A stretch of DNA of 56,494 nt from contig LJZT01000015.1 of assembly GCA_001314905.1 (NCBI GenBank), forward strand, positions 1 through 56,494, in the 5' to 3' direction. Of the stretch, positions 6,430 through 56,494 are shown one piece after another. The first letter of the stretch is position 1. The number at the start of each line of letters is the position of its first letter. The position numbers and the translations under genes were made by a program. The notes under the pieces were generated by a model. The model saw nothing but the letters and a program-made list of their open reading frames with translations. It made no database searches and had not been told where the DNA came from. Source of the stretch: Phormidium sp. OSCR. Its GTDB lineage: Bacteria; Cyanobacteriota; Cyanobacteriia; Cyanobacteriales; Geitlerinemataceae.

Positions 6430-8508
6430 TTACCCCATTGCGTCTTTGAGGGCATTTTGGGTCATCGAGGCGATCGCCTGATCACTGGCTTTAGGCAGAT
6501 GATAGTAGGTTCCGCCAGCGGTTTGGGCCAGTTCCTTGGCGAATCCCGTCGAGACAAAACGGCTTTCGGTGTTCACCACCAATAACTGAATCCCCAGGGC
6601 GCGAATCCGTCCGGCGATATCCAGTAATTCGGCTTTGATGTCGGGTTTGTCGTTGGGATCAATCTCTTCCCCGAGCGATCGCGCCAGAGGAATGTTCCCC
6701 CGGCCATCGGTAATCGCCACAATCGCCGTTTGTCCCACATCCCCCGACTGTTGGGCGTTGAGACAGACGCGCACCGCTTGAGTTAAGCCGTGGGCCAGGG
6801 GCGAACCGCCTCCACAGGGCATCCGTTCGAGACGGCGACGGGCCTGGGTGATGGAACGGGTGGGGGGAAGCAGGACTTCGGCTTGTTCGCCCCGGAAGGG
6901 AATCAGGGAGACCTGATCGCGGCTTTGATAGGCTTCCGTTAACAGTTGAATCACCGCCCCTTTGGCCGACTGCATCCGGTTTAAGGCCATCGAACCCGAC
7001 GCATCGACGAGGAACACCACTAAGGCCCCGGCTTTACGAGCCAGGCGTTTGGCCCGTAGGTCGCTTTGCTCGACAATGACGGTGCGATCGGGGTTCCGGA
7101 GGCGGCGGGCTTTCTGATAGGGGGCCGCAGCCCGGAGGGTGGCATCCACGGCCACGCGCCGGACTTTGCCCTGGGGCAGAATGGGTTTGATATAGCGGCC
7201 GCGATCGTCGGAGATAATCAGACTGCGGCTGCCGGAGTTGCCGGCCCGTTGCATGGTTTGGGCGAAGTTCATCACTTCGGGGTCCAAAATTACCCCTTCT
7301 GGGTCGAAGATAAACTCCTCGGGGACATCGGGAGTTTGGTCTTCGGGTTGTTCTAACTCCTCGTCCTCTTGGTCGTCTTCGTTGTTGTCCTCCTCGTTCT
7401 CATCGTTGTCTTGGGGGTCGTTGTCGTCCTCATCCTGGGGCGATTCTGGGGGCGGAGGCGGGGGGGGTTGTTCTTCTTCTTCGGGAGGGGTCTGGACCAC
7501 CGTAGAGCGCGGCACAATCACCAGTTCCACAGCTCGCCGCAGGTCATCGGCGTTGACATCGGTGCGGCCTTCCAGGGCGGCGGCGGCTTGGGCCACACGC
7601 AGGGCGAAGAGTTCGGCCCGATGACCCTGGACGACTCCCCGGATGGCTTCGTTGACGAGATATTGGACTTGTTCGGCTTTAACTTGAACGTCTGGGAGCC
7701 ATTCTCGGGCTAGGAGGATTTGGGTTTTCAGTCCGTCGATGTCGTCGTCGAATTGTTTGAGGAACTCGTCGGGGGATTTGGCGTAGTTTAAGACTTGTTG
7801 GACCGCTTCGACGCGCATATCGAGTCCGAGGACGCGATCGGCTGAGAGGGTCATGGCGATGCGATCGAGCAGGTGTTCCCGGAGGGGGCCTTCTTGGGGG
7901 TTGTAGGTGGCGATGAGGAGAGGTTTGCAGGGATGTTGAATGCTGATTCCTTCCCGTTCGATGATGTTGCGGCCTTCGGTGAGGACGCTGAGGAGCAGGT
8001 TGGCGATTTCACTGTCGAGGAGGTTGATTTCATCGACGTAGAGGACGCCGCGATGGGCTTTGGCCAGGAGTCCGGGTTGGAAGACGGGTTCGCCTTTTTG
8101 CACGGATTGTTCGACATCAACAGACCCCAGGAGCCGGTCTTCGGTGACGTTGAGGGGAATCTGCACGAAGGGGGCGGCGATGACTTGGGTGTTGAGGTCG
8201 CTGATGTCGTCGGGGTTATCGTGGCTGCGGTTGGCGTAATGCTCTAGGGCGATGTCGTCCCATTCGTCGGGGCGGGTGGGGTCGCAGTTACTGATCGATT
8301 CGCTCAGGACTTCGATGGGGGGAAGCAGGGCGTGTAAGGCCCGAGCCATGACGGATTTGGCGGTTCCTCGTCGGCCGGCGATCGCCACTCCACCGACGCC
8401 GGGGTCTACGGCGGATAACAGGAGGGCGATTTTGATGGCCTCTTGGCCAATGACGGCACTCAGGGGAAAGGTGGTTCGAGTGGCAGTGGTAAGGGCTGGC
8501 GCTGACAT
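6430..8508 (-). CDS. chlD: Magnesium chelatase subunit D
   Basis: 692 residues, usual for cyanobacterial ChlD. It is the MgATP-dependent partner of ChlI and ChlH that inserts Mg2+ into protoporphyrin IX, the first committed step to chlorophyll. Domains: AAA+ module (about 15-335; P-loop GRRGTAKS at 45-52, a degenerate form typical of ChlD), a Pro-rich then Asp/Glu-rich linker (about 343-390), and a C-terminal von Willebrand A domain whose MIDAS motif DASGSMA begins near 499. The gene is not next to chlI, which lies 32 kb away. A small exported protein follows five bases downstream. Confidence 0.97.
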
Positions 8509-9524: not shown

Positions 9525-9547
9525 TCAGGGGGAAGCAACCGGGGGTC

Positions 9548-9617
9548 AAAGAAACCGGGTTTCTGGCAGCATCTGCTGTTGCTTGACAAAAATTTAACAA
9601 AGAAACCGGGTTTCTGA
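9548..9617. repeat. Dispersed palindromic repeat AGAAACCGGGTTTCT, two copies
   Basis: Near-perfect 15-base palindrome AGAAACC G GGTTTCT at about 9550-9564 and again at 9601-9615. Related copies occur at 42.94, 42.98 and 43.05 kb. It lies between the xisI-like remnant and the Phd/VapC pair. It is a dispersed cyanobacterial repeat rather than a gene-specific operator. Confidence 0.75.
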
Positions 9618-9694
9618 GTCTCTGGAATGTGGTAAAATTGGAATGCTATCCCCTACCGGGTGCTAGGTTATAGATAAACGAGGAAGGATAAGCG

Positions 9695-9922
9695 ATGAAA
9701 ATTATTGATATTAACCAAGCCTTACCGCAAATTATGGAACTGATAGAAATGGCTTTTGCCGGAGAAGAAATTATCATTAGTAAAAATAATCAGCAAACCA
9801 TTAAAATCACTCCAGTTTTATCGCCTCAGCCGCGCCCCCCTTTATTTGGGTGCGATAAAGACCGGATTGCTCTCAGGGATGATTTTGATGAACCATTGGA
9901 TGATTTTCAGGACTATATTTAA
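9695..9922 (+). CDS. Phd/YefM-family antitoxin
   Basis: 75 residues. MKIIDINQALPQIMELIE and AGEEIIISKNNQQTIKI follow the Phd/YefM DNA-binding fold; the acidic C-terminus (DDFDEPLDDFQDYI) is the usual toxin-neutralising tail. The stop overlaps the toxin ATG by one base (TAATG), so translation is coupled. Such antitoxins repress their own operon; no operator was picked out. A spaced GAGGAAGGA ribosome site precedes the ATG. Confidence 0.9.
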   Translation: MKIIDINQALPQIMELIEMAFAGEEIIISKNNQQTIKITPVLSPQPRPPLFGCDKDRIALRDDFDEPLDDFQDYI

Positions 9923-10311
9923 TGCGGTTACTCCTTGATACTCATACGGTCCTGTGGTTTTTTATGGGAAATTCTCGGTTGAGCGACAAGGTGCGTGATT
10001 TGGTCGAAGACGGTCATAATCATAAGCTGATTAGTGTTGCTACGGTTTGGGAGATGTCCATCAAACAGAGTCAGAATAAGTTAACCCTGGAAAAAACTGC
10101 GTCAGATTACATAGAGGAGAAAATCAGATTAGATGATTTTGAATTGTTGCCAATTCAACTCAACCATTTAAGGATATTGTCATCACTTCCATTTTACCAT
10201 AAAGACCCATTTGACAGACTTTTAATCGCCCAAGCCATGCAAGAAAACATCCCGATTTTAAGCAAAGATATGGCGTTCAATGCTTATCCAATCCAGAGGA
10301 TTTGGGACTAG
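9922..10311 (+). CDS. PIN-domain toxin (VapC family)
   Basis: 129 residues, full length. The acidic catalytic residues of a PIN ribonuclease are visible: Asp6 in LLLDTH, Glu44 in VWEMSIK, Asp95 and Asp98 in HKDPFDRLL, and Asp116 in SKDMAF. VapC enzymes cut RNA, often initiator tRNA. It is translationally coupled to the Phd/YefM antitoxin. This is the only toxin-antitoxin pair in the 8.5-10.5 kb debris zone that looks functional. Confidence 0.92.
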   Translation: MRLLLDTHTVLWFFMGNSRLSDKVRDLVEDGHNHKLISVATVWEMSIKQSQNKLTLEKTASDYIEEKIRLDDFELLPIQLNHLRILSSLPFYHKDPFDRLLIAQAMQENIPILSKDMAFNAYPIQRIWD

Positions 10312-10400
10312 ACGTGAACACAAAACTCCTCAGTGTCTTTTGTGTTCCGCTTCCAGGCATCAGTTACAATACCCACTATCCCCCTACTCTATCCCTAGCC

Positions 10401-10550
10401 ATGAACGAACAACGCATCGCCGCCTATCTCTCCCTGATTCAAGAACTCCTCGACTGTCCGGGTGGGGAGGAACCGCAAATCCTAAACGGTCATCTGGAGT
10501 TAGTGGATGAGGGGTTTGTGCAGGTGTGCGAGACTGAAACCAGCAGGTGA
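10401..10550 (+). pseudogene. Truncated 5' end of a second TPR-CHAT gene
   Basis: 49 codons, MNEQRIAAYLSLIQELLDCP and onward, matching the start of the large TPR-CHAT protein at 11485 (MDEQRVQAYRSLIQELLECP): the two agree through GE..PIL/QIL and GF.Q.C, then this copy diverges and stops. The DNA just before both starts is also alike (CTATCCC(C)CTAC). It is a broken paralogue, left after deletion of the rest of the gene. Confidence 0.75.
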
Positions 10551-10744
10551 TGATAGATACAAGCTTTCGACGTACTAAACCACGCTAGGACTTGTCAAGT
10601 ATTTAAATATGGTTTAAAGTACAGGTAGGCATAAAAGCGACCCAGACGAGCCAGACTGTTAGAGCCTCTTCCCAGAGCAAAATAGAGGTTTCTCAGGGAG
10701 TTTGTAGGACTCCCCCATCAGCAACCAACTCAATCTTCAAAACC

Positions 10745-11299
10745 ATGGCGTTTAAGTTTAAGACGGGCGCTCAAGTCAGTCCTGTGGTCAGTTTTTTTAG
10801 AAGCAACAGCCTCGGGTTTGTCGCTTTATTTGCCCTGAGCTTATCTCTTACTCTAACTGGATGTGCCGACACATCCATTGCACCTCCTGTCGCTGAAAGT
10901 AACCCGTTATTCCTGCATCGCTGGTTAGCCTTAGTTGGAGTCATCTTTCTGGGACTTGTTAATGTAGGACTGGTGACATCAGGAGATGCTGAACTAGCTG
11001 GAGAATGGTTCGGAGAGCAAACCGTAACAGCAGTCATCAGTGGAGTTATTATGATGACCAAGCTAGGGGAATTATGGTTTATGTTCCTCCAGTGGCTATT
11101 TGGATTGTGGAATCCCATTTTAGCCATCCTGGGCTTTCTGAATGGATTTGTTTGTAATTTGGGGGCGGCGATTATTTGGATTGTCTTGCTTGGGTTTATT
11201 TTCCCTACACCGGAACTTTTCTATTGGGGAGTTCTGCCAACGTTAGGGGGAATGGGGTTACGAACCCTCTCTCTCCTTGCTGGACGTTCTGAGTCGTAA
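10745..11299 (+). CDS. Unknown polytopic membrane protein with a lipobox-like N-terminus
   Basis: 184 residues. A first hydrophobic segment ends in LTLTGCAD, which looks like a lipobox (LTGC), but three further hydrophobic segments follow (LALVGVIFLGLVNVGLV; LWFMFLQWLFGLWNPILAIL; LGAAIIWIVLLGFIF), so it is either an unusual lipoprotein or a four-helix membrane protein. I recognise no family and see no good ribosome site. It lies between the broken and intact TPR-CHAT genes on the same strand; a functional link is possible but unsupported. Confidence 0.55.
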   Translation: MAFKFKTGAQVSPVVSFFRSNSLGFVALFALSLSLTLTGCADTSIAPPVAESNPLFLHRWLALVGVIFLGLVNVGLVTSGDAELAGEWFGEQTVTAVISGVIMMTKLGELWFMFLQWLFGLWNPILAILGFLNGFVCNLGAAIIWIVLLGFIFPTPELFYWGVLPTLGGMGLRTLSLLAGRSES

Positions 11300-11484
11300 A
11301 AAGACGCGATCGAGTGGACAGGTTTGTAAAATTAGTAGTTGTTGATTAAGAAAACTTGTCCACTTGACTTAAAACTGAAATTTATTGTCTCTATTTATAC
11401 ACCAAAGTTTGAGAAAGAAATCCGGCTTTACCGGTCGGGAGGATTAGGTAAAATCGGGGTCTATCCCCTACCCAGTGCGCCACT

Positions 11485-14400
11485 ATGGATGAACAAAGAG
11501 TACAGGCTTATCGCTCCCTGATTCAAGAACTCCTGGAATGTCCCCGTGGGGAAGTCAACCCAATTCTCAAGCGTGAACGGGAACAGATTAATGTGGGGTT
11601 CTTGCAGCAGTGTAGAGTGGTAGCGGAACAGTTGCAAGCGAGAGGGGAGGCGAAGCAAGCACAGTTTCTGCGGGATTTGGCGCAACAATTAGGGGAATAT
11701 GTCAAGAGTCAGTCCCCCAAAATACCCCCCAATGCCAGTCAACCCAAGGCTACCGGGGAAGACTATCATCGGTTTTTAATGCAGGTGTTGCAAGCCACTT
11801 CAAAAAGTCGCGGTAATCCCCAGGTAGTTTATCCTATTCTGCAACAGAATTTAGATAAATTAGATGTGAATTTAGCCCAAATATTGCGAGTTTGGGCAAC
11901 TCAATTTTTCAGCCAATCAGATAAAAATCAAGCCTTTAGAGTGGCTACAGATATTGGTCAATTCGCGAATTTAATTCGAGAATTTAATCTGGGTAATCGG
12001 TCAAATAATATCGAAATAACAATTGCGGGCTATGAAATCATTGCCACGGTTTTTACTCAAGAGAATAATGCCAAGATTTGGGCTATCAATCAAGCAAATT
12101 TGGGGAGTGTTTACATTAAACGGATTCAGGGAGAGCAAGCGGATAATCTGGAACAAGCCATTGCTGCTTATAAAGCAGCTTTAGAAGTTTATACTCGTGA
12201 AACCTATCCCGAAAAATGGGCCGAAACTCAAGTCAACCTGGGAAATGCTTATAATAACCGTATTCGAGGGGAAAACGGGAAAAATTTGGATGATGCCATT
12301 TCTTATTATAAAGAAGCTTTAGGTTTCTATACCCAGGAAGATTTTCCCCAACAATGGGAAAGGATAAATAAATTTTTAAACGAAGTCGAGAATAAAAGGA
12401 CTTTCAGTTTTATGATGGAAGTGTTGCAAACTACTTCAAGAAATTATGTTAATCCTTCAGTTATTTATTCTATCCTGCGAGATAATCAAGACAAGCTAAC
12501 TCCCAGATTTGTTGAGGTTTTACGGTGCTGGGCAAGTCAGAGTTTTTGCAATTTAAATGCAATACAGTTAGAAAGTATTGCCAAAGGACTCGTTAATTTT
12601 GGTGATTTAATTTGTCAGTTTCCATTAGGCAATCGGTGGAGTAATGTGGAAATTGCTATTGCCGGATATGAGATTGCCCTGACAATATGTACTCGTGAAG
12701 CATACCCACAACAATGGGCAAGGACGCAAAACGATCTTGGGGCTGCTTATGGTGAGCGGATTCAGGGGGATCGGGCAGAAAATCTGGAACGAGAAATAGC
12801 GGCTTGTCAGGCGGCATTAGAAGTTTTTACTCGTGCTGCTTATCCCCAAGAATGGGCGACAGTCAATGGGCATCTTGGGGCTGCTTATGGTGAGCGCATC
12901 CGGGGGGATCGGGCAGAAAATCTGGAAATGGCGATCGCCTGCTTAAACTCCTCTTTAGAAGTCCAAACTCGTCAAGTAAACCCCCAAGCATGGGCAGATA
13001 CCCAAAATAATCTGGGGAGTGTCTACTTATACCAGATCCAGGGCGAACGTGCCGATAACTTCGAGAAGGCAATTGGCTACTACCAAGCGGTTTTAGAAGT
13101 CTATACCCGTAGCACTTATCCGAAACAATGGGCGATGACCCAAAATAATTTGGCAATTGCTTACAGTAACCGTATCTGGGGAGAGCGAGCCGAGAACTTG
13201 GAGCAGGCAATTGGCTACTACGAAGCCGCTTTAGAAGTCTATACCCGCAGCGCTTATCCCGAACAATGGGCAGGTACGCAAAATAACTTAGGAGAAATCT
13301 ATCGTAACCGCATTCGGGGAGAGCGAGTGGAAAACCTGGAGAGGGAGATCGCCTGCTACGAAGCCGCTTTAGAAGTCTATACTCGCAGTGCTTATCCCAA
13401 ACAATGGGCAACTCTTCAACATAAGCTGGCTTCTGTCTACAGTAACCGCATCAAAGGAGAGCGTGCCGAGAATTTGGAAAGGGCGATCGCCCTCTATGAA
13501 GCGGCACTAGAAGTCACAACCCGCAGTGCCTATCCCAAACAATGGGCAACTCTTCAACATAAGCTGGCTTCTGTCTACAGTAACCGCATCCGGGGAGAAC
13601 GCGCCGACAACCTGGAGAGGGAGATCGCCTATTACGAAGCGGCGTTATCCGTTTATAACCGCAGCGACTATCCCGAACAATGGGCGATGACGCAACATAA
13701 CTTGGGACTGACCTACTGGAAACGCATCTGGGGAGATCGCGCCGAGAATATTGAAAAAACGATTGGCTACTCCGAAGCGGCTTTAGAAGTTTATAACCGC
13801 AGCACCTATCCTGAACAATGGGCCGAGACGAAAAATAACTTGGGAGTTGCCTACAGTAACCGCATCAAAGGAGAGCGTGCCGAGAACCTCGAAATTGCCA
13901 TTGCCGTCTCCAAAGCGCCTTTAGAAGTCTATACCCCCAGCACCTATCCCGAAAAATGGGCTAGGTCGCAAAATAACTTAGCTTCTGGCTACTATTCCCG
14001 CATCCGGGGAGAGCGTGCCGAGAACTTGGAGCGGGCGATCTCCTGTTCCGAAGCCGCCTTATCCGTTTATACCCGCAACGCCTATCCGGAACAATGGGCA
14101 GATACCAAAAATAAATTGGCAGGTGTCTACTCTAACCGCATCAAAGGAGAGCGATCTGAGAATCTAGAAAGGGCGATAGCCTGCTCCGAAGCCGCTTTAC
14201 AAGTCTATACCCGCAGCGCCTATCCCGAACAATGGGCGATGATACAAAATAATTTGGCAGGTGTCTACTCTAACCGCATCAAAGGAGAGCGATCTGAGAA
14301 TCTAGAGAGGGCGATATCCTGCTCCGAAGCCGCTTTAGAAGTCACAATCCGCAGTGCCTATCCCCAACAATGGGCAGATACGCAAAATAACTTAGCAATT

Positions 14401-18790: not shown

Positions 18791-18930
18791 ATATCGCCGC
18801 TTTGCAAGATGAACAACAGTGGGAGACGGCGTTTAATCGGACTCAATCCGCCTTAGTCACCGCCGCACATCAAGCCAAACAACAACGCGCCGCTGGACAA
18901 GCTACCCCAATGGATTATAACCAATTATAA
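18790..18930 (+). pseudogene. C-terminal fragment of a gene coupled to the downstream membrane protein
   Basis: The frame YIAALQDEQQWETAFNRTQS then ALVTAAHQAKQQRAAGQATP then MDYNQL runs from the end of the second 86-bp repeat to a TAA that overlaps the next ATG by one base (TAATG). The composition (charged, helical, ending in a short tail) looks like the end of a real small protein, and the coupling suggests it was an operon member. No start remains: the 5' part has been replaced by the repeats. I cannot name the family. Confidence 0.6.
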
Positions 18931-20423
18931 TGAGCATTTTCGCCCCCAATCTCTATTTATGCGCGTATCATCTCCGGGAAGATGACACCCAGGGAGAGAC
19001 TCATCCCCTGTGGGAAAATTGCGATCGCCTCCTCTCCCACTTCACCGAAACTCGACTCATCCCCCAGCTTCACCTCAGCCAAAATCGCATCCTCCTCCCC
19101 CCAAACCAAACCGAAATTCCCTTCACCCTTCCCGACTTTCCAGATATGGAAGGGTTCATCCAACCGGTTCAACTTCAAAAAGACAGTTATGGGGTATTTC
19201 TTAACATCGGCTATGACGAGGAAAAGGAAAACCTCGAAGATGTCGAAGTTACCATCTTACAAGAGTTTAATCCCGACCATCACCTCCAGTTTCCCCTCAC
19301 CCCATCTTTCCTCGGAGAAACCCTCATCCTCACCCTCTGGTTAACCCGGAAAACCCAACAACATAAATCTGAGTATCTCACTCAACTCGCCAATCAATGC
19401 TACCAAGCCTTATTTCCCACAACTTCCCCTCCCTTATCCCGTAGTGGGGAATTATTCGGAAGTTCTATTTTTGAATATGGGAATCCCCGCGAACCCGATA
19501 AATCCCCCCATGTTCTCATCTGGCTATTCCGCGATGAACTCGCTGACCAAACTCTGCAAAAATGCTTTTATTCCATCTTTGACCTGTTTTTCTATCGCCA
19601 TAAAGTCAGCAAAGCCTTTCAAGATAGCCGGGACATTCATAAACAACTCAAACAGTATTATTGCAGCCTCGACCCTATCTTAGATAACATTCAAGTCCAA
19701 CTTGATACCGCTAACCCTGACCCCCAAGATACCACCTATCTACAAAACTTAAAAACTCAGTTAAAACAACTTTCCGCAGATTCTCTGATTTACGATCGCC
19801 GGCTGCGGAAAATGAAAGATTTATTGACCACAATTAACATCAATCTTAACAATTATAATGAAACAATTGAGCGGATTTGTGCTACACTAGAAATCGATAA
19901 GGAAGAACTATCATTTTGGCGATATTTCGGAGAGACAACCGCGCCGTATTTCCGGGAACAAATTGAAGCCAACTTAAGTTATTTTGACCAGGGAACTGGG
20001 TTAATTCGTCAAGCGGTGGACTCGATTCGCGCCATCGTCGAAATTGACCAAGCTCAGTGCGATCGCACCTGGCAACGGTGGGAGAGAAAGCGAGATAAAC
20101 GACAACAAGACCTCCAGAAAAAAGCCGAAGCCAACGCCAAAGCCGAACAAGAACGACAAGAACAAGCCAACCAGGAACTCCAAGACCAAATCCAAGCCGT
20201 GGGAGTGGGGATTGCAGCGGGGGCTATTGTCGCCTCCGTCTCCGGTTTAGCCACCGAACCTTGGCACCTTCCCAACGGAGAAAAAATCGAACTCCCCTTT
20301 GTCCTCCCCCATCCCTTTCTCATTGGATTATTCGGCAGTATCATCTGTTCGTTGGGGGCCTGGTGGATCGCCAAACGACTGATTCAAACGCGGCGATCGC
20401 CCCCCAAACCCCCTAAGGAATAG
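18930..20423 (+). CDS. Coiled-coil, membrane-anchored partner protein (CATRA-like)
   Basis: 497 residues. An N-terminal globular part (MSIFAPNLYLCAYHL, WENCDRLLSHF) of about 200 residues is followed by a long helical section, a charged coiled coil (about 390-430, RQQDLQKKAEANAKAEQERQ) and two C-terminal hydrophobic segments (about 430-447 and 466-487) with a basic tail. From memory the arrangement resembles the CATRA (caspase and TPR-repeat associated) proteins reported beside TPR-caspase genes; no search was possible. Co-orientation with the TPR-CHAT gene fits a two-part conflict system in which this protein is the membrane component. The last 14 codons form one copy of a 41-bp direct repeat. 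Confidence 0.6.
   Translation: MSIFAPNLYLCAYHLREDDTQGETHPLWENCDRLLSHFTETRLIPQLHLSQNRILLPPNQTEIPFTLPDFPDMEGFIQPVQLQKDSYGVFLNIGYDEEKENLEDVEVTILQEFNPDHHLQFPLTPSFLGETLILTLWLTRKTQQHKSEYLTQLANQCYQALFPTTSPPLSRSGELFGSSIFEYGNPREPDKSPHVLIWLFRDELADQTLQKCFYSIFDLFFYRHKVSKAFQDSRDIHKQLKQYYCSLDPILDNIQVQLDTANPDPQDTTYLQNLKTQLKQLSADSLIYDRRLRKMKDLLTTININLNNYNETIERICATLEIDKEELSFWRYFGETTAPYFREQIEANLSYFDQGTGLIRQAVDSIRAIVEIDQAQCDRTWQRWERKRDKRQQDLQKKAEANAKAEQERQEQANQELQDQIQAVGVGIAAGAIVASVSGLATEPWHLPNGEKIELPFVLPHPFLIGLFGSIICSLGAWWIAKRLIQTRRSPPKPPKE
20382..20422. repeat. 41-bp direct repeat, left copy (3' end of the coiled-coil gene)
   Basis: Identical over 41 bp to 21403-21443 and containing a HIP1 site. This copy encodes the last residues TRRSPPKPPKE of the coiled-coil gene, whose TAG stop ends one base beyond the repeat. 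With the right copy it brackets the GNAT toxin-antitoxin module. Confidence 0.95.
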
Positions 20424-20499: not shown

Positions 20500-21024
20500 T
20501 CAGGCTTGCGAACCCAGTGAAGCATGGGCATCACTAACCTTGACCATGAGTGTCATTGGATCAACAGGTGAAGCCGTGAAACCACAGGTCTCATAAAATC
20601 GCTTCGCATCATCCGAGATAGCATGGACTAGAATTGCGCGTATTCCTGCAATTTCAGCCGCTTGGAGAGTACGCAGAATGGCATCTCGCAGTAGAGCACG
20701 CCCAATCCCTTGGCCTTGCCAGTGACGATCAACGGCTAATCGTCCAATCACCATAACGGGAATCGGATCAGGCATATTACGCCGCACCCGACCTGTTGCA
20801 GAAGCCTGGGCCACAGCTCCATTAGCGAGACAGTAATAGGCGATGACGATTTCGCCATCGCTAACAACATAAGTGCGTGAAGCCCCTCCGACCTCGTTTT
20901 TCAGAGCACGACGCTTAAGCCAGTCATCTAGCTGACGATTCCCTGAGTTAAAGCTTTGAACATCGTGGGACGAATTGAGTTTCTCAGGTGGGCGAAGCTT
21001 AGGCTGATCTCGATCTAATCCCAC
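20500..21024 (-). CDS. tacT: GNAT acetyltransferase toxin (TacT-like)
   Basis: 174 residues. LRPPEKLNSSHDVQSFNSGN and then LDDWLKRRALKNE, GGASRTYVV open it as in TacT-type toxins, which acetylate aminoacyl-tRNA and stop translation. The acetyl-CoA loop RHWQGQGIGRALL (near 104) and the FYETCGF block (near 144, with the usual catalytic Tyr) are intact. It overlaps the 3' end of the DUF1778 antitoxin by 10 bases, so the two are translated as a pair. The module is flanked by 41-bp direct repeats and lies between two genes that would otherwise be convergent neighbours. Confidence 0.9.
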   Translation of the reverse strand: MGLDRDQPKLRPPEKLNSSHDVQSFNSGNRQLDDWLKRRALKNEVGGASRTYVVSDGEIVIAYYCLANGAVAQASATGRVRRNMPDPIPVMVIGRLAVDRHWQGQGIGRALLRDAILRTLQAAEIAGIRAILVHAISDDAKRFYETCGFTASPVDPMTLMVKVSDAHASLGSQA

Positions 21025-21311
21025 GGAGCCTTAGTTGTCAGTAATGTGTGCAGCTTCTCATCCTGGGTCGGTGGCGCATCTAGCAACGCCACAAACTGCT
21101 TAAATTTAAGTTCATCTAACCCGAAGAACGTCTGTTCAAGAAGAACATCTTGCGCCTTCTGATACGATGACTCAAGCATAAACTCCGAGCGGCTCTTGCC
21201 CTGCACTTCAGCCGCATGATCAATTAGATCTCGTTGGCTTTGCTTAGCTCGGATATTGATTGTAACATCGCGGGTCTGGCTACCCGAACCGTCACTAGCG
21301 GAGCTGTGCAT
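21015..21311 (-). CDS. tacA: DUF1778 antitoxin (TacA-like)
   Basis: 98 residues. RDVTINIRAKQSQRDLIDHA and AAEVQGKSRSEFMLES are the ribbon-helix-helix DNA-binding region of DUF1778 antitoxins; the C-terminal half (FFGLDELKFKQFVALLDAPP) is the toxin-wrapping tail. It precedes and overlaps the GNAT toxin. The family represses its own promoter; that promoter would lie in the roughly 90 bases between this start and the right 41-bp repeat. Confidence 0.9.
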   Translation of the reverse strand: MHSSASDGSGSQTRDVTINIRAKQSQRDLIDHAAEVQGKSRSEFMLESSYQKAQDVLLEQTFFGLDELKFKQFVALLDAPPTQDEKLHTLLTTKAPWD

Positions 21312-21402: not shown

Positions 21403-21443
21403 ATTCAAACGCGGCGATCGCCCCCCAAACCCCCTAAGGAATA
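21403..21443. repeat. 41-bp direct repeat, right copy (3' end of feoC)
   Basis: Perfect copy of 20382-20422. Here it overlaps the last bases of feoC on the other strand (stop at 21434-21436). Without the inserted 1021 bp (insert plus one copy), the coiled-coil gene and feoC would end in the same short overlap and the former would read GAA TAA, so the two-copy state looks derived. Confidence 0.95.
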
Positions 21444-21652
21444 AACTGATACCACTCAAACTGATCGGGATCGCAATGGTGACAATCCCCACAGCGTTGA
21501 CCACAGGGTAACTGTTGCACCCGTCCCTTACGAATCAACTTCTTCAGCATCAACCGCAACAGATCGCGATCGCAGTGAAAATGATTCACCAAATCCGCCA
21601 ACGACACCGACCGATGCTCAGCCAAATAGCCCTGTAACTCTCGTAAAATCAT
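21434..21652 (-). CDS. feoC: FeoC-like winged-helix protein
   Basis: 72 residues. ILRELQGYLAEHRSVSLADL with LVNHFHCDRDLLRLMLKKL forms a winged-helix fold, followed by a four-Cys cluster CGQRCGDCHHC that in FeoC proteins can bind an Fe-S cluster. FeoC is an accessory protein of the FeoB ferrous iron transporter. It starts nine bases after the feoB stop, as third gene of feoABC. Confidence 0.9.
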   Translation of the reverse strand: MILRELQGYLAEHRSVSLADLVNHFHCDRDLLRLMLKKLIRKGRVQQLPCGQRCGDCHHCDPDQFEWYQFIP

Positions 21653-32401: not shown

Positions 32402-32627
32402 GCAGTTAATAGTTAATAGTTAATAGTTAATAGTTGATAGTTGATAGTTAATAGTTGATAGTTGATAGTTGATAGTTGATAGTTGATAGTTGATAGCCAG
32501 CCGGCGGGCGATGCCCGCTTTTTCTCTTGCCTGTTCCCCCTTCCCTGTTCCCTGTTCCCTGTTCCCTGTTCCCTGTTCCCTGTTCACTATTCACTATTCA
32601 CTATTCACTATTCACTATTCCCCCCCT
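32402..32627. repeat. Compound STRR block: three different heptamer families
   Basis: Between rimK and the M14 gene lie about 14 copies of AGTT(A/G)AT (32404-32500), then about seven of CCCTGTT (32535-32584), then about five of TTCACTA (32583-32620). The spacer 32500-32534 contains GCCGGCGGGCGATGCCCGC, a possible short hairpin. Three unrelated 7-bp units side by side imply that STRRs accumulate at the same sites. The block ends eight bases before the M14 ATG. Confidence 0.92.
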
Positions 32628-35910: not shown

Positions 35911-38900
35911 ATGTTTTATCAGTTTTTCATCAAACGGCCCGTCTTCGCCTCCGTCTGTTCCCTACTGCTGATGCTGGTGGGACTCGTTGGCTACGGCAGT
36001 TTACCCGTCCAAGAACTTCCCAGCATCGACCCCCCCGTTGTCAGCGTCACCACCACCTATCCAGGGGCTAACCCCAGCGTCGTCGAAACCGAAGTCACCG
36101 AAATCCTCGAAGCCGAACTCAACAGCGTTGATGGCGTGCGTACCCTCACCTCCCAAAGTCGTCAAGCCGTCAGTTCCATCACCGTCCAATTTGACCTCGA
36201 CCAAGACGTTGACATTGGCGCCCAAGAAGTCCAACGCAGCATCGCCCAAGTCGTCGGACAACTCCCCGACAACGCCGACTCCCCCGTTATTCGCCGCGAA
36301 TCCGGTGACGCCGCCCCCATCATCTGGTTTGGCCTCTACGGCGAAGACGAAAGCATCACCACCCTAGAACTGAGTGACTACGCCGATCGCTTTATCGTCG
36401 ATGCCCTCGAAACCATCAACGGCGTCAGCAGTGTCATCATCGGCGGCGAACGTCGCTACGCCATGCGGCTTTGGATCGACCCGCAACGCCTCGAAGCCCG
36501 TGATCTGACCATTCTCGATGTCGAAAACGTACTGCGGCAAGAAAACGTCGAACTCCCCAGTGGACGCATCGAAGGCAACCAAAACGAATTTTCCGTGCGA
36601 ACCCTCGGCCGACTGCGGGAACCCGAAGAGTATGAAGCCCTCGTGCTGCGAACCACCAGCGACGGCAGCCAAATTCGCTTCCAAGACATTGGCTACGCCG
36701 AAATCGGTGCCGAAGATGATCGCTCCTTCGTGCGCTTTAACGGTCGCCCAGCCGTCGGGTTAGGGGTCGTTAAACTCTCGACCGCCAACACCCTCAACGT
36801 CGCCGCCGAAGCCCGGGCCAAAATGGCAGACCTCAAAGCCGACTTCCCCCCAGGGATGAATTACGAAGTCGCCGTCGATAACTCAGAATTTGTGCAACTG
36901 GCCATTGATGAAGTCTGGGGGTCTCTCTATGTTGCCGTTTTCCTCGTCATCGTCGTGATTTTCTTTTTCCTGCGCGATTGGCGAGCCACCATTGTCCCAG
37001 CCGTGACTATTCCCGTCTCGCTGATTTCAGCCTTCGGGATTATGTTTATCCTCGACTTCTCCATTAACACCCTGACCCTGTTTGCCCTAACCCTAGCCAC
37101 AGGACTGGTGGTGGACGATACCATCGTCGTCTTAGAAAACATCGTCCGCTACATCGAACAAGAAGAGATGAAACCCTATCAAGCCGCCCTCAAAGGCTTA
37201 GAAGAGGTCATCTTTGCCGTCATTGCCACCACCGTGGTTTTGGTGGCCGTGTTTCTCCCCGTCGGGTTTGCCACCGGCGTCACCGGAGAGTTATTTGCCG
37301 AATTTGCCCTCACCTTAGCTGGGTCCGTCATTGTCTCCTCCTTCGTCGCCCTGACCCTGGCCCCGAGTTTATCAGCCCGAGTCCTGAAACCTCACTCAAT
37401 GCTGCATGGCTGGATTTTTGATAAAGTCGAAGATCTCTTAACCGGCGCCGCTAACTTTTATGCCTCAAGTCTGCGGCTGGCCCTGTCTGTTAAACCCTTG
37501 GTTGTAGCTGGTTTTATTCTCTCAATTGGCCTACTGGGCATTTTATTTACCCAAATTCCCAAAGGCTTCCTACCCGACGAAGACCGGGGACAGATTTTGA
37601 CCATTGTTGATGCGCCCCAAGGGGTCAGCATTGACTATACCGACAACGTGATGCGTCAAATCGAAGCCGTCTATGCGGAAATGCCTGAAGTTCGCTATTA
37701 CTTTAGCATTGGCGCGTTTGGACGGGGCGCACCGGGTCAGGTGAATCAGGGGATTGCTTTTGTTCGCCTGCAACCCTGGTCGCAACGAGAAGAACCTCAG
37801 CAATCCCAACAAGCCCTAGTTGGACAATTGTTTGGACGCTTTTCGCAAATTCCCGACGCTTTAATTTTTCCGGTTAATCCGCCAGCGTTACCCGGCGGAG
37901 GCTTTGGTCAGCCGGTGCAATTGGTGTTACAAGGACCAAGTTTAGAGCAGTTAGCAGATATTTCCGGGGAGTTAGCCCAACGTGCCAACCAACTGCCTCA
38001 ATTGAGGAATGTCGATACGACCTTGAAATTGACTCAGCCTGAAGTGGCCGTAGAGATTGACCGTCAACAAGCCGCTAATCTCGGAATTAGCACTCAAGAC
38101 ATTTCCAATACCTTACAAATTCTTTTAGGTAGCCAGGAAATTACCAGCTTCAACCGGGAAAATCGTCGCTATGAGGTGGTGGTTCAAGCTGAGGAACAAT
38201 TCCGTTTAAGTCCTGAGAGTATTCGGGAACTTTCTCTACGAACCAGTGAGGGACAGTTAGTGCCGCTGAGTAATTTAGTACGTCTGGCAAAAACGACAAC
38301 TCCCCCGCAAATTGAGCATTATCAGCGTTTTCGTTCAGCCACCATTGAAGGAAGTCCCGCTCCTGGGTATAGCTTAGGAGAGGCGATTACGGCGTTACAA
38401 GAGTTGGCCGATGAGATTGCCCCTGACGGGGTGACGACGGCGTTGGCGGGGGAATCTTTGGAGTTTGCTGAAGCCGGGGAGGCGACGGCCTTTATTTTTG
38501 GTTTAGCCATGGCCTTTATTTTCTTGGTCTTATCGGCTCAGTTTGAGAGTTATTTAGACCCGATTGTGGTTTTGTTAACGGTTCCTTTGTCTCTGGTTGG
38601 GGCGTTGGGTGCGTTGATGCTCTTTGGTTTAGAGTTGAATATCTATAGTCAAATTGGCTTGATTATGTTGATTGGTCTAGCCACTAAGAATGCCATTTTG
38701 ATTGTGGAGTTTGCTAATCAAAAACGAGAGGAAGGACTCTCGATTTATCGGGCGGTGATTGAGGCGGGGCGGATTCGGTTCCGTCCCATTTTGATGACGG
38801 CATTTTCGACTATTTTTGGTTTAATGCCATTGGCATTTGCCAGCGGAGCTGGGGCGATTAGTCGGGTCTCGATTGGGATGTCTGTGGTGGGCGGGATGTT

Positions 38901-39006
38901 GGTTTCGACGCTCTTGAGTCTCTATGTGATTCCGGTTTTTTATGTACTCGTGAATGGGGTGCAGAAGAAGATGGTTCGCAATTTGCATTTGGAGCCGGAA
39001 CATTGA
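35911..39006 (+). CDS. RND efflux pump, HAE1 (AcrB-like) permease
   Basis: 1031 residues, full length. It starts MFYQFFIKRPVFASVCSLLL, the standard HAE1 N-terminus. Proton-relay Asp402-Asp403 in TM4 (GLVVDDTIVVLENIVRYIE) and the matching GLATKNAILIVEFANQKREE in TM10-11 are intact, as are the two large periplasmic loops. It exports hydrophobic or amphiphilic compounds with the proton gradient, together with the adaptor upstream. The third-position base use drops in G+C from about 37.5 kb on, but the frame is continuous. Confidence 0.96.
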   Translation: MFYQFFIKRPVFASVCSLLLMLVGLVGYGSLPVQELPSIDPPVVSVTTTYPGANPSVVETEVTEILEAELNSVDGVRTLTSQSRQAVSSITVQFDLDQDVDIGAQEVQRSIAQVVGQLPDNADSPVIRRESGDAAPIIWFGLYGEDESITTLELSDYADRFIVDALETINGVSSVIIGGERRYAMRLWIDPQRLEARDLTILDVENVLRQENVELPSGRIEGNQNEFSVRTLGRLREPEEYEALVLRTTSDGSQIRFQDIGYAEIGAEDDRSFVRFNGRPAVGLGVVKLSTANTLNVAAEARAKMADLKADFPPGMNYEVAVDNSEFVQLAIDEVWGSLYVAVFLVIVVIFFFLRDWRATIVPAVTIPVSLISAFGIMFILDFSINTLTLFALTLATGLVVDDTIVVLENIVRYIEQEEMKPYQAALKGLEEVIFAVIATTVVLVAVFLPVGFATGVTGELFAEFALTLAGSVIVSSFVALTLAPSLSARVLKPHSMLHGWIFDKVEDLLTGAANFYASSLRLALSVKPLVVAGFILSIGLLGILFTQIPKGFLPDEDRGQILTIVDAPQGVSIDYTDNVMRQIEAVYAEMPEVRYYFSIGAFGRGAPGQVNQGIAFVRLQPWSQREEPQQSQQALVGQLFGRFSQIPDALIFPVNPPALPGGGFGQPVQLVLQGPSLEQLADISGELAQRANQLPQLRNVDTTLKLTQPEVAVEIDRQQAANLGISTQDISNTLQILLGSQEITSFNRENRRYEVVVQAEEQFRLSPESIRELSLRTSEGQLVPLSNLVRLAKTTTPPQIEHYQRFRSATIEGSPAPGYSLGEAITALQELADEIAPDGVTTALAGESLEFAEAGEATAFIFGLAMAFIFLVLSAQFESYLDPIVVLLTVPLSLVGALGALMLFGLELNIYSQIGLIMLIGLATKNAILIVEFANQKREEGLSIYRAVIEAGRIRFRPILMTAFSTIFGLMPLAFASGAGAISRVSIGMSVVGGMLVSTLLSLYVIPVFYVLVNGVQKKMVRNLHLEPEH

Positions 39007-39098: not shown

Positions 39099-39122
39099 CA
39101 ATGCAATAAATTACACTCGACT

Positions 39123-39149
39123 TAATTTGAGGCAAAAAATGTGCCGGCG
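39123..39149. repeat. 27-bp direct repeat, left copy (duplicate of ruvC 3' end)
   Basis: Perfect copy of 39831-39857. It repeats the last codons and part of the stop of ruvC but is detached from that gene, lying beyond the higBA pair. The two copies start 708 bp apart. Confidence 0.95.
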
Positions 39150-39177
39150 GTTAGCCGCGTCCGAGTTGAACCGGTTG

Positions 39178-39483
39178 TTATGTGACTTCCAGGGATTCGC
39201 TGTTGACAAGGCGTTTCACTTGCAGGTCTTTGCGATGCTGTTCAGCATTCCAAAGATCATACTGGATTTGCTGGTTTAGCCAACTTTCCGCTGTGGTGTC
39301 AAATGCAATGGATAAGCGAACTGCCATTTCTGGGCTGATCCCAGCACGCTGATTCAGGATGGCACTCAGTGTCTTACGACTGACACCCAAGGCTTTAGCG
39401 GTGTCGGTGACTGAAAGGCCAAGTGGCTCAAGACAAAGCTCTCGAATCACTTCACCTGGATGTGGAGGGTTGTGCATAAGCAT
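39178..39483 (-). CDS. higA: HigA-family antitoxin
   Basis: 101 residues. [20 protein letters not shown] and [20 protein letters not shown] form the XRE-type helix-turn-helix of HigA, followed by [14 protein letters not shown] and the conserved [14 protein letters not shown]. It lies nine bases after higB (toxin first, the usual HigBA order). The pair is bracketed by 27-bp direct repeats that copy the ruvC 3' end. Confidence 0.94.
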
Positions 39484-39492
39484 AGCGACACC

Positions 39493-39771
39493 TCAATGAT
39501 AGTCCTCATAATTCACGACTTCGGCATCCTGACCTTCGAAGCGGAAGGTAACACGCCAATTTTTACTGACATCGACTGCCCACATACCAGACCGATTTCC
39601 CTTCAGTTCGTGAAGCCGGAGTCCCGGAAGATTCATATCCTGAGGCTGCCTGGCAGCATGGAGCCGACCGAGTATGAGACGGAGTCTTTTCACATGAGAT
39701 GCCTGAATTCCAGAGACACTTCCCGTCTCGAAGAAGCGTCTGAGACCTTTATGCTTGAAACTCCGAATCAT
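39493..39771 (-). CDS. higB: HigB-family toxin (RelE/ParE fold)
   Basis: 92 residues. MIRSFKHKGLRRFFETGSVS, LRLILGRLHAARQPQDMNLP, and LHELKGNRSGMWAVDVSKNW then RVTFRF are the conserved HigB blocks. HigB is a ribosome-dependent mRNA endonuclease. First gene of a two-gene operon with higA; the promoter should lie in the 60 bases before the right 27-bp repeat. Confidence 0.94.
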   Translation of the reverse strand: MIRSFKHKGLRRFFETGSVSGIQASHVKRLRLILGRLHAARQPQDMNLPGLRLHELKGNRSGMWAVDVSKNWRVTFRFEGQDAEVVNYEDYH

Positions 39772-39829
39772 ACGCTAGATTGTAACCCGTACTGTTGCAG
39801 GTGTCAATTTCATCCGCCATTTATTTGAC

Positions 39830-40318
39830 CTAATTTGAGGCAAAAAATGTGCCGGCGATCGCCACCGCCAACGCATCAGCTGCATCGTCAGGTTTGGGGA
39901 TTGTATCTAAGTCCAATTCCCGCGCGACAGCTTCCTGAACTTCCAATTTAGAGGCGTTTCCATACCCCGTTAATGACTGTTTTACTTGGCCGGGAGTCAG
40001 TTCAATTAAGGGTAGGTTATGTTGAGCTAAGACTAACATCATAACCCCTCGGGCTTGGGCCACCATAATCAAATTGCTCATACGATAGAAAAAGAGCTTT
40101 TCAACGACTACCATCTGCGGGGAAAACTGCTCACATAAAGCGTGTAAATCCTCATAAATGGTCTGGAGGCGATCGCCAATCGGTTGTTTAGCTGGGGTTT
40201 GGATAATGCCAAAATCAAGGGGTTTGAGGCGATCGCCCCCATCAGAGACGATCGCCCCAAACCCCAAACGCGCCAACCCTGGATCGAGTCCTAATATACG
40301 TGGGTTAGCGGCTGTCAT
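39830..40318 (-). CDS. ruvC: Holliday junction resolvase RuvC
   Basis: 162 residues from ATG 40318 ([14 protein letters not shown]); a TTG at 40333 would lie almost on the chlI stop. Catalytic acids are visible in [26 protein letters not shown] and [13 protein letters not shown]. RuvC cuts Holliday junctions in recombination and repair. It starts 15 bases after chlI. Its 3' end is the right copy of the 27-bp repeat around higBA. Confidence 0.96.
39831..39857. repeat. 27-bp direct repeat, right copy (ruvC 3' end)
   Basis: Identical to 39123-39149. It encodes the ruvC C-terminus (AGTFFASN) and two bases of its stop codon. Confidence 0.95.
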
Positions 40319-40333
40319 CGAGCGTTCAGCCAA

Positions 40334-47211: not shown

Positions 47212-47282
47212 GGAATAGGGAATAGGGAATAGGGAACAGGGAACAGGGAACAGGGAACAGGGAACAGGGAACAGGGAATAGG
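47212..47282. repeat. STRR array (GGGAATA then GGGAACA)
   Basis: About ten heptamers between the redoxin stop and the next small gene: three GGGAATA, six or more GGGAACA, and a final GGGAATA. The unit changes gradually along the array. Confidence 0.9.
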
Positions 47283-56408: not shown

Positions 56409-56494
56409 TCCCTGTTCCCTGTTCCCTGTTCCCTGTTCCCTGTTCCCTGTTCCCTGTTCCCTGTTCCCTGTTCCCTGTTCCCTGTTCCCTGTTC
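56409..56494. repeat. STRR array (CCCTGTT), runs off the window
   Basis: About twelve perfect copies of CCCTGTT up to the last base; the true length is unknown. The longest pure heptamer array in the window. The preceding CCCCTTGCCCCTTGCC is a related decayed form. Confidence 0.95.

Follow-up and report, generated by a model that had tools for sequence, protein, structure and literature searches.

Toxin–antitoxin modules leave a footprint that can be counted in the genus of Phormidium sp. OSCR. In four genomes of this genus, long direct repeats are much more common around toxin–antitoxin loci than around control open reading frames (ORFs), and in the resolved cases the repeats duplicate a site of which a relative has a single copy. 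Comparison of the sequences makes insertion with target duplication well supported for two modules of the strain, tacAT and a vapBC on contig C147, and probable for a third, higBA. Insertion with a long target duplication is known for restriction–modification systems; the best reading of our data is that it extends to toxin–antitoxin modules. The window, the whole stretch of DNA analysed, was 56,494 bp in length and contained higBA and tacAT; by its gene content and GCGATCGC motifs, the genome is presumably cyanobacterial.

The higBA module lies at the 3′ end of ruvC. The segments 39123–39149 and 39831–39857 are identical (27/27 bp) with a spacing of 708 bp, exactly as an earlier note on this DNA had described them; when one mismatch is allowed, the repeat extends to 31 nt (39119–39149 and 39827–39857). 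By an arithmetic estimate, chance would give roughly 1e-8 matches of 27 bp at distances up to 2.5 kb over 56 kb, and a chance origin was rejected. The note had also stated that two bases of the ruvC stop belong to the repeat and that ruvC is intact, with which our reading agrees: the ruvC frame (39830..40333, minus strand; Pfam RuvC, 1.5e-37) ends normally beside the insert at 39830, and the perfect repeat takes in two bases of its stop. The ruvC stop in the near copy is TAG; TAA stands in its place in the far copy.

All features of this locus are on the minus strand. The near copy, i.e., the 3′ end of ruvC (39827..39857, with 39831–39857 perfect), is followed by a promoter-like site upstream of higB, TTGACA-17-TACAAT (39779..39807), which is a consensus match only, with 11/12 consensus bases. 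Next are the genes of a HigB-like toxin of 92 aa (39493..39771; PF05015, HigB-like_toxin, 9.7e-21) and of a HigA-like HTH antitoxin of 101 aa (39178..39483; PF01381, HTH_3, 6e-10). Toxin and antitoxin families are thus adjacent by their Pfam matches, as in a type II module, which the pair is predicted to be. The far repeat lies 28 bp beyond the higA stop; the left half of an attC-like site (39150..39184) overlaps this stop and is truncated where the far repeat begins. The far copy (39119..39149) passes into the ruvC–transporter intergenic sequence, a flank partly conserved in the congeners G004 and G006. Across the insert from ruvC is the gene 35911–39006, which we take to encode an RND-type transporter. 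Single-stranded DNA folding of the repeats and of the attC half gave nothing unusual (z from −1.2 to 0.8).

The higBA insert region had no match in any of six congeners (G001–G006), and none of the six had a single-copy, uninserted ruvC site. Both flanks were found on one contig in G006 only; the G004 contig ends at the ruvC site, and G001, G002, G003, and G005 were without the transporter-side flank. Because there is no clean empty ruvC site and the one congener with both flanks has other sequence between them, we infer that higBA was inserted between what are now two copies of the terminal 31 bases of ruvC. In G006, the same gene end (L027, G006:C403, ~6500–7812) carries a different insert with an attC-like stretch seen by eye and a reading frame that is presumably DUF3800-like. 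This foreign sequence adjoins the ruvC stop directly, so the 3′ end of ruvC may be a recurrent landing place for inserts.

The closest relatives of the HigB protein among the best 80 of 149 are mostly from Proteobacteria (87% in Nitrosomonas halophila, 85% in Thiocapsa imhoffii); a relative of 87% in the same set belongs to a Spirochaetaceae bin. Several relatives of higBA end in a full tail that we take to be attC-like from the general form of the motif, and the higA tail in the window matches its left half, breaking off within the central hairpin at the start of the far repeat. Since half of such a site persists, we infer that the fragment with higBA had earlier been an integron cassette whose attC-like site was broken and was probably not the joining point. 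An intact cassette at ruvC was rejected, as the attC-like site is halved, with only the left half present. The integron integrase model gave two partial, below-cut-off matches in this genome (G000:C9:143-277 and G000:C48:38711-38857) and likewise in 14/14 control genomes. The second of these matches lies within L110, in which a further stretch shares 85% identity with the attC-like site of G001.

As the earlier note had said, tacAT is a second module in the window with the same architecture. It is bracketed by a 41-bp perfect repeat (20382..20422 and 21403..21443, plus strand) with a spacing of 1021. The near copy stands at the end of a host gene of 497 aa without a Pfam match (18930..20423, plus strand), which G001 has without the insert. 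Genes encoding a TacT-like GNAT toxin (20500..21024; PF13508, 6.9e-12) and a TacA-like antitoxin (21015..21311; PF08681, 1.8e-23) are on the minus strand between the copies. The far copy includes the stop of a convergent gene (21434..21652, minus strand), presumably feoC-like, and the 41-bp repeat contains the ends of both this gene and the host gene. In the uninserted site the last 11 bp of the two genes overlap, as calculated arithmetically; an insertion sparing both therefore has to duplicate the overlap.

The tacAT site of G001, a member of the same genus, is a single 41-mer (40/41 bases) with no insert. Its flanks are 289/300 (97%) and 191/200 (96%) identical to those in the window, against 49/200 and 34/200 in crossed controls, and they overlap by exactly 41 bp. 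The same insert and junctions, minus internal sequence, are present in G005 (L127, G005:C1 near 556296); there the left host gene is missing, and the other DNA at its position has a reading frame that looks PIN-like by eye. Both repeat copies in the window have a G where the single copy of G001 and both G005 junctions have a C; this shared base suggests that the two copies may exchange sequence with each other. Relatives of tacAT in G002, G004, G026, and G014 had no flanking repeat longer than 11 bp.

The third case in this genome is the vapBC of contig C147. Its VapC was assigned by a family match (16884–17264 of L194, minus strand), and the 3′ end of the host gene (17600–18715 of L194, minus strand) is duplicated over 172 bp, with 163/172 identical positions between the copies. 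The site is present in one copy with no insert in G001 and G002, and the G001 flanks are 291/300 identical on each side. The insert begins 2 bases past the host stop, and its far junction is directly after the vapC stop. Homologues of this vapBC in G001 and G002 (84% and 71%) occupy other sites and are flanked by repeats of other sequence; the G001 homologue ends in a complete attC-like site, of which the C147 copy has none. Larger versions of the higBA, tacAT, or C147 inserts were not found in congeners G001–G006. Single-copy, uninserted sites in relatives, as with restriction–modification insertions, were thus found for tacAT (G001) and the C147 vapBC (G001 and G002) and not for higBA; a look for empty sites in relatives had been proposed in the earlier note.

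A flanking repeat was counted when it was perfect over 22 bp or more and lay within 1200 bp. They occurred at 9/23 toxin–antitoxin loci of this genome (20 PIN, one ParE, one HigB, and one TacA) versus 15/428 control ORFs (Fisher p 3.5e-7). The controls were mechanical ORFs taken from the window and from 40 stretches; ORFs near stretch ends were dropped, as were, in this genome, those near toxin–antitoxin loci. Limited to control ORFs of no more than 200 aa, the comparison was 9/23 to 11/129 (p 5e-4). Three of the nine repeat-flanked loci are one repeat-rich locus (C87), and its repeats, being dispersed 290-bp gene fragments, were rejected as target duplications. A PIN gene of the window (9931–10287) also lies among dispersed gene fragments of the C87 PIN-gene kind (9542–11682).

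When only repeats with at most three copies in the sequence searched were counted, 6/23 loci compared with 0/180 ORFs of the same stretches (p 1.1e-6) and 4/145 ORFs of other stretches (p 5e-4); without this filter the two control sets gave 5/180 and 7/145. A 22-bp repeat at C139, which has the look of what we take to be a dispersed motif, was retained among the six because two copies are present in the sequence searched. The stretches L200–L202, with a CRISPR-like array, belong to neither control of the copy-filtered count; they are three members of a 20-stretch set of this genome, the other 17 having been chosen for containing toxin–antitoxin loci. The array itself (L200 16793–20000, G000:C166) has repeats of ~37 bp and is a source of control matches in the 15/428.

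In G001, G002, and G005, flanking repeats were found at 26/52 VapC loci versus 8/293 ORFs (p 5e-18), or versus 4/106 ORFs of no more than 200 aa (p 1.4e-11), and at 15/52 loci versus 2/293 ORFs after the removal of dispersed repeats (p 7e-12). The 52 loci, which are not all independent (two orthologous pairs were seen), are 69 matches minus 17 without flanks, and the 293 control ORFs come from 20 stretches of G001. The remaining half of the VapC loci in these three genomes (26/52) had no flanking repeat. Raw enrichment partly reflects dispersed and family repeats in module-rich regions, and the filtered counts are safer. The earlier note had named repeats no more common around modules than around random gene pairs as the outcome that would speak against it; the counts came out the opposite way in both comparisons.

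Flanking repeats at C96, C185, and C147:12429 are diverged, with no resolved empty site, and no clean empty site for ten further loci was found among the sequences compared. HigBA loci of other bacteria had flanking repeats in 16/69 cases, counted with no control ORFs alongside; several of these are attC pairs or dispersed repeats by eye. The 69 loci are the best 80 of 149 relatives minus 11 with short flanks.

After gapped refinement of 18 repeat-flanked loci, 11 had a duplicated host-ORF 3′ end, corresponding to nine independent cases; in the other 7/18 loci the repeat was not a host 3′ end. The duplication runs past the host stop by 3 bases at higBA, −1 at tacAT, and 2 at C147, and by 19, 13 or 21 (an orthologous pair), 1, 81 (a pair), 42, and 2 bases in the other six. 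In a tenth case, the HigBA of Halomonas/Vreelandella (L053), the match ends exactly at the host stop. The host ORF keeps its stop in 10/10 cases, and the repeat ends no more than 3 bp from the stop in 6/10. Were the insertion point uniform between the stop and the duplication length, a total offset as small as this would seldom arise (simulated p 2e-6, KS p 4.5e-4); this test was post hoc, used ten hand-picked loci (from the 18, plus L053) with one value per orthologous pair, and includes the doubtful host ORF G001:4303301. The values are suggestive of an anchoring of repeat ends at stop codons.

HigBA loci in L053, L061, and L069 (Vreelandella neptunia, V. glaciei, and Halomonas olivaria) have the last 38–46 bp of the host gene in front of them copied on the far side, which is the same architecture in another phylum. 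The ungapped match in L061 stops 8 bp before the host stop. In L069 the match ends a few bases before the stop, and the mechanical ORF there is in another frame.

The reading we consider probable is that these toxin–antitoxin modules were inserted with a long target duplication in illegitimate captures linked to repair or replication, the outcomes being filtered by addiction and by the need for intact neighbours. A DNA fragment with a complete module would be captured in such an event: host synthesis would halt at or just past the stop codon of a gene, the foreign fragment would be joined there, and host synthesis would restart 31–172 bases behind the halt point, so that host sequence is duplicated and none is destroyed. 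A restart ahead of the halt point would instead produce a deletion and often a broken gene. Two filters would then act, namely, that neighbouring genes must remain intact and that the module resists loss by addiction; selection for intact neighbours together with a loss-resistant module would leave the observed pattern among the survivors.

The duplications measure a probable 31 bp at higBA, 41 bp at tacAT, and 172 bp at the C147 vapBC. The three inserts have no evident shared ends and no shared terminal inverted repeats by eye; a GGTC that higBA and tacAT have in common at one junction is probably a coincidence. No recombinase gene was recognised in the reading frames of the three inserts, with a Pfam search made for the higBA and tacAT module genes only. 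The repeats of the three resolved cases, compared by eye, are unrelated and have no common attachment core. Long and variable duplications, the lack of evident shared ends and of a recombinase gene, and the arbitrary ends of the fragments argue against transposases and site-specific recombinases. The earlier note had proposed a shared insertion route favouring gene ends, perhaps a recombination-based capture. The recurrent outcome and the enrichment support the proposal in part; an element with its own ends, which the note also considered, does not agree with the unlike termini, the varying repeat lengths, and the inserts without a visible recombinase gene. The regeneration of gene ends, which it ascribed to the route, would be expected just as well if insertion duplicates its target and selection retains intact genes. 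The attC half of higA, the feoC-like gene end in the tacAT repeat, and the repeats at further toxin–antitoxin loci were not mentioned in that note.

Several findings speak against capture of this kind. Random capture does not predict that repeat ends cluster at stop codons; some insertions have no flanking repeat (four tacAT relatives and half of the VapC loci); higBA is without a single-copy site, and 7/18 repeats are not host 3′ ends. The clustering could instead reflect an unrecognised, stop-anchored insertion process, in which the host gene would stay whole as far as its stop, the module would be attached at that point, and the final tens to hundreds of host bases would be written a second time on the far side. 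This would be a separate, transposase-free mobility route for bare gene pairs, with a step, e.g., at RNA–DNA hybrids where ribosomes leave the message. We regard such a process as unlikely; if the clustering proved true in a larger blind sample, it would point to a definite molecular step.

Single-crossover homologous integration of a small circle that bears the module together with a gene-end copy appears distinctly unlikely. It would yield long variable repeats and an intact gene, and the base shared by the tacAT copies and differing from G001 and G005 allows for exchange of sequence between them. A circle model, with excision and re-insertion, was proposed for repeat-flanked transposed genes of Arabidopsis; the available part of that report describes non-transposon genes whose direct repeats match the orthologous target sequence, as here, although these are plant genes (PMC2869330). 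The circle, however, leaves open how the module first joined that gene end. Moreover, the near copies at tacAT and C147 closely match the recipient genus, whereas the closest relatives of higB, among the best 80 of 149, are mostly proteobacterial.

Genomic islands at gene 3′ ends keep the gene end whole and are bounded by direct repeats. In this site-specific manner, a trans-acting recombinase could integrate units that each carry a copy of a gene end, and the 3′-end position, the intact gene, and the repeat ending near the stop, where the repeat ends cluster in the post hoc test, have the look of such islands. Yet the host gene and the repeat (31, 41, or 172 bp) differ at every locus, the vapBC homologues occupy other sites with other repeats, and neither a recombinase gene nor a common core was seen; the three best-resolved inserts are only ~0.7–1 kb. 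We find integration of this kind quite improbable. It is highly improbable that the inserts are remnants of larger gene-end islands eroded to the addiction module, with the repeats as old attachment sites. Addiction modules do resist deletion, but the C147 insert has tight borders, from just past the host stop to the vapC stop, so island-eroding deletions would need to reach both repeat borders, and neither an island remnant nor a larger version of an insert was seen in congeners. The least probable alternative is an integron integrase inserting a cassette at a non-attC site: half an attC-like site in higBA, full sites in several of its relatives, and the complete site on the G001 vapBC homologue agree with it, but the higBA site is cut midway, none was seen at the C147 vapBC or tacAT, the genome has only the two partial integrase matches below the cut-off, and cassette insertion by such an enzyme is not expected to duplicate 31–172 bp.

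The presumed cassette past of higBA resembles toxin–antitoxin cassettes of integrons in the left attC-like half of the higA tail and in the relatives with full sites; it differs in the halved site, in the lack of a cassette array at the higBA locus, and in the duplicated target. The nearest parallel to capture with a long target duplication is in restriction–modification systems. Their insertion with such a duplication was reportedly described by Nobusato et al. 2000 (Gene 259:99). As far as the accessible parts of four papers go, restriction–modification systems insert with a long and variable target duplication (PMC3874152, PMC1643837, PMC3031569, PMC4978471). The likeness, within the same parts, lies in addiction-type cargo and in a long variable duplication seen by comparing related genomes. 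The cargo here is instead HigBA, TacAT, and VapBC, known by family matches only, and the hosts are apparent cyanobacteria; those parts of the four papers do not raise, for restriction–modification insertions, a concentration of repeat ends at host stop codons. A parallel between restriction–modification and toxin–antitoxin modules is drawn in PMC2654758 and PMC3031569, and the portions available of these two and of PMC2701414 do not report such insertion for toxin–antitoxin modules. A literature search, with most subscription journals outside it, likewise retrieved no report of toxin–antitoxin modules inserted with a long target duplication.

With the present cases, toxin–antitoxin modules would stand beside restriction–modification systems as addiction modules that share one insertion signature, and this likeness fits the idea that rare captures persist as their cargo resists loss. 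The pattern in related genomes suggests that toxin–antitoxin pairs may settle in new places without a known transposon. The window additionally contains arrays in which TTCCCTG, or its complement, recurs as a 7-base unit, at 32541–32585, 47231–47278, and 56409–56494.
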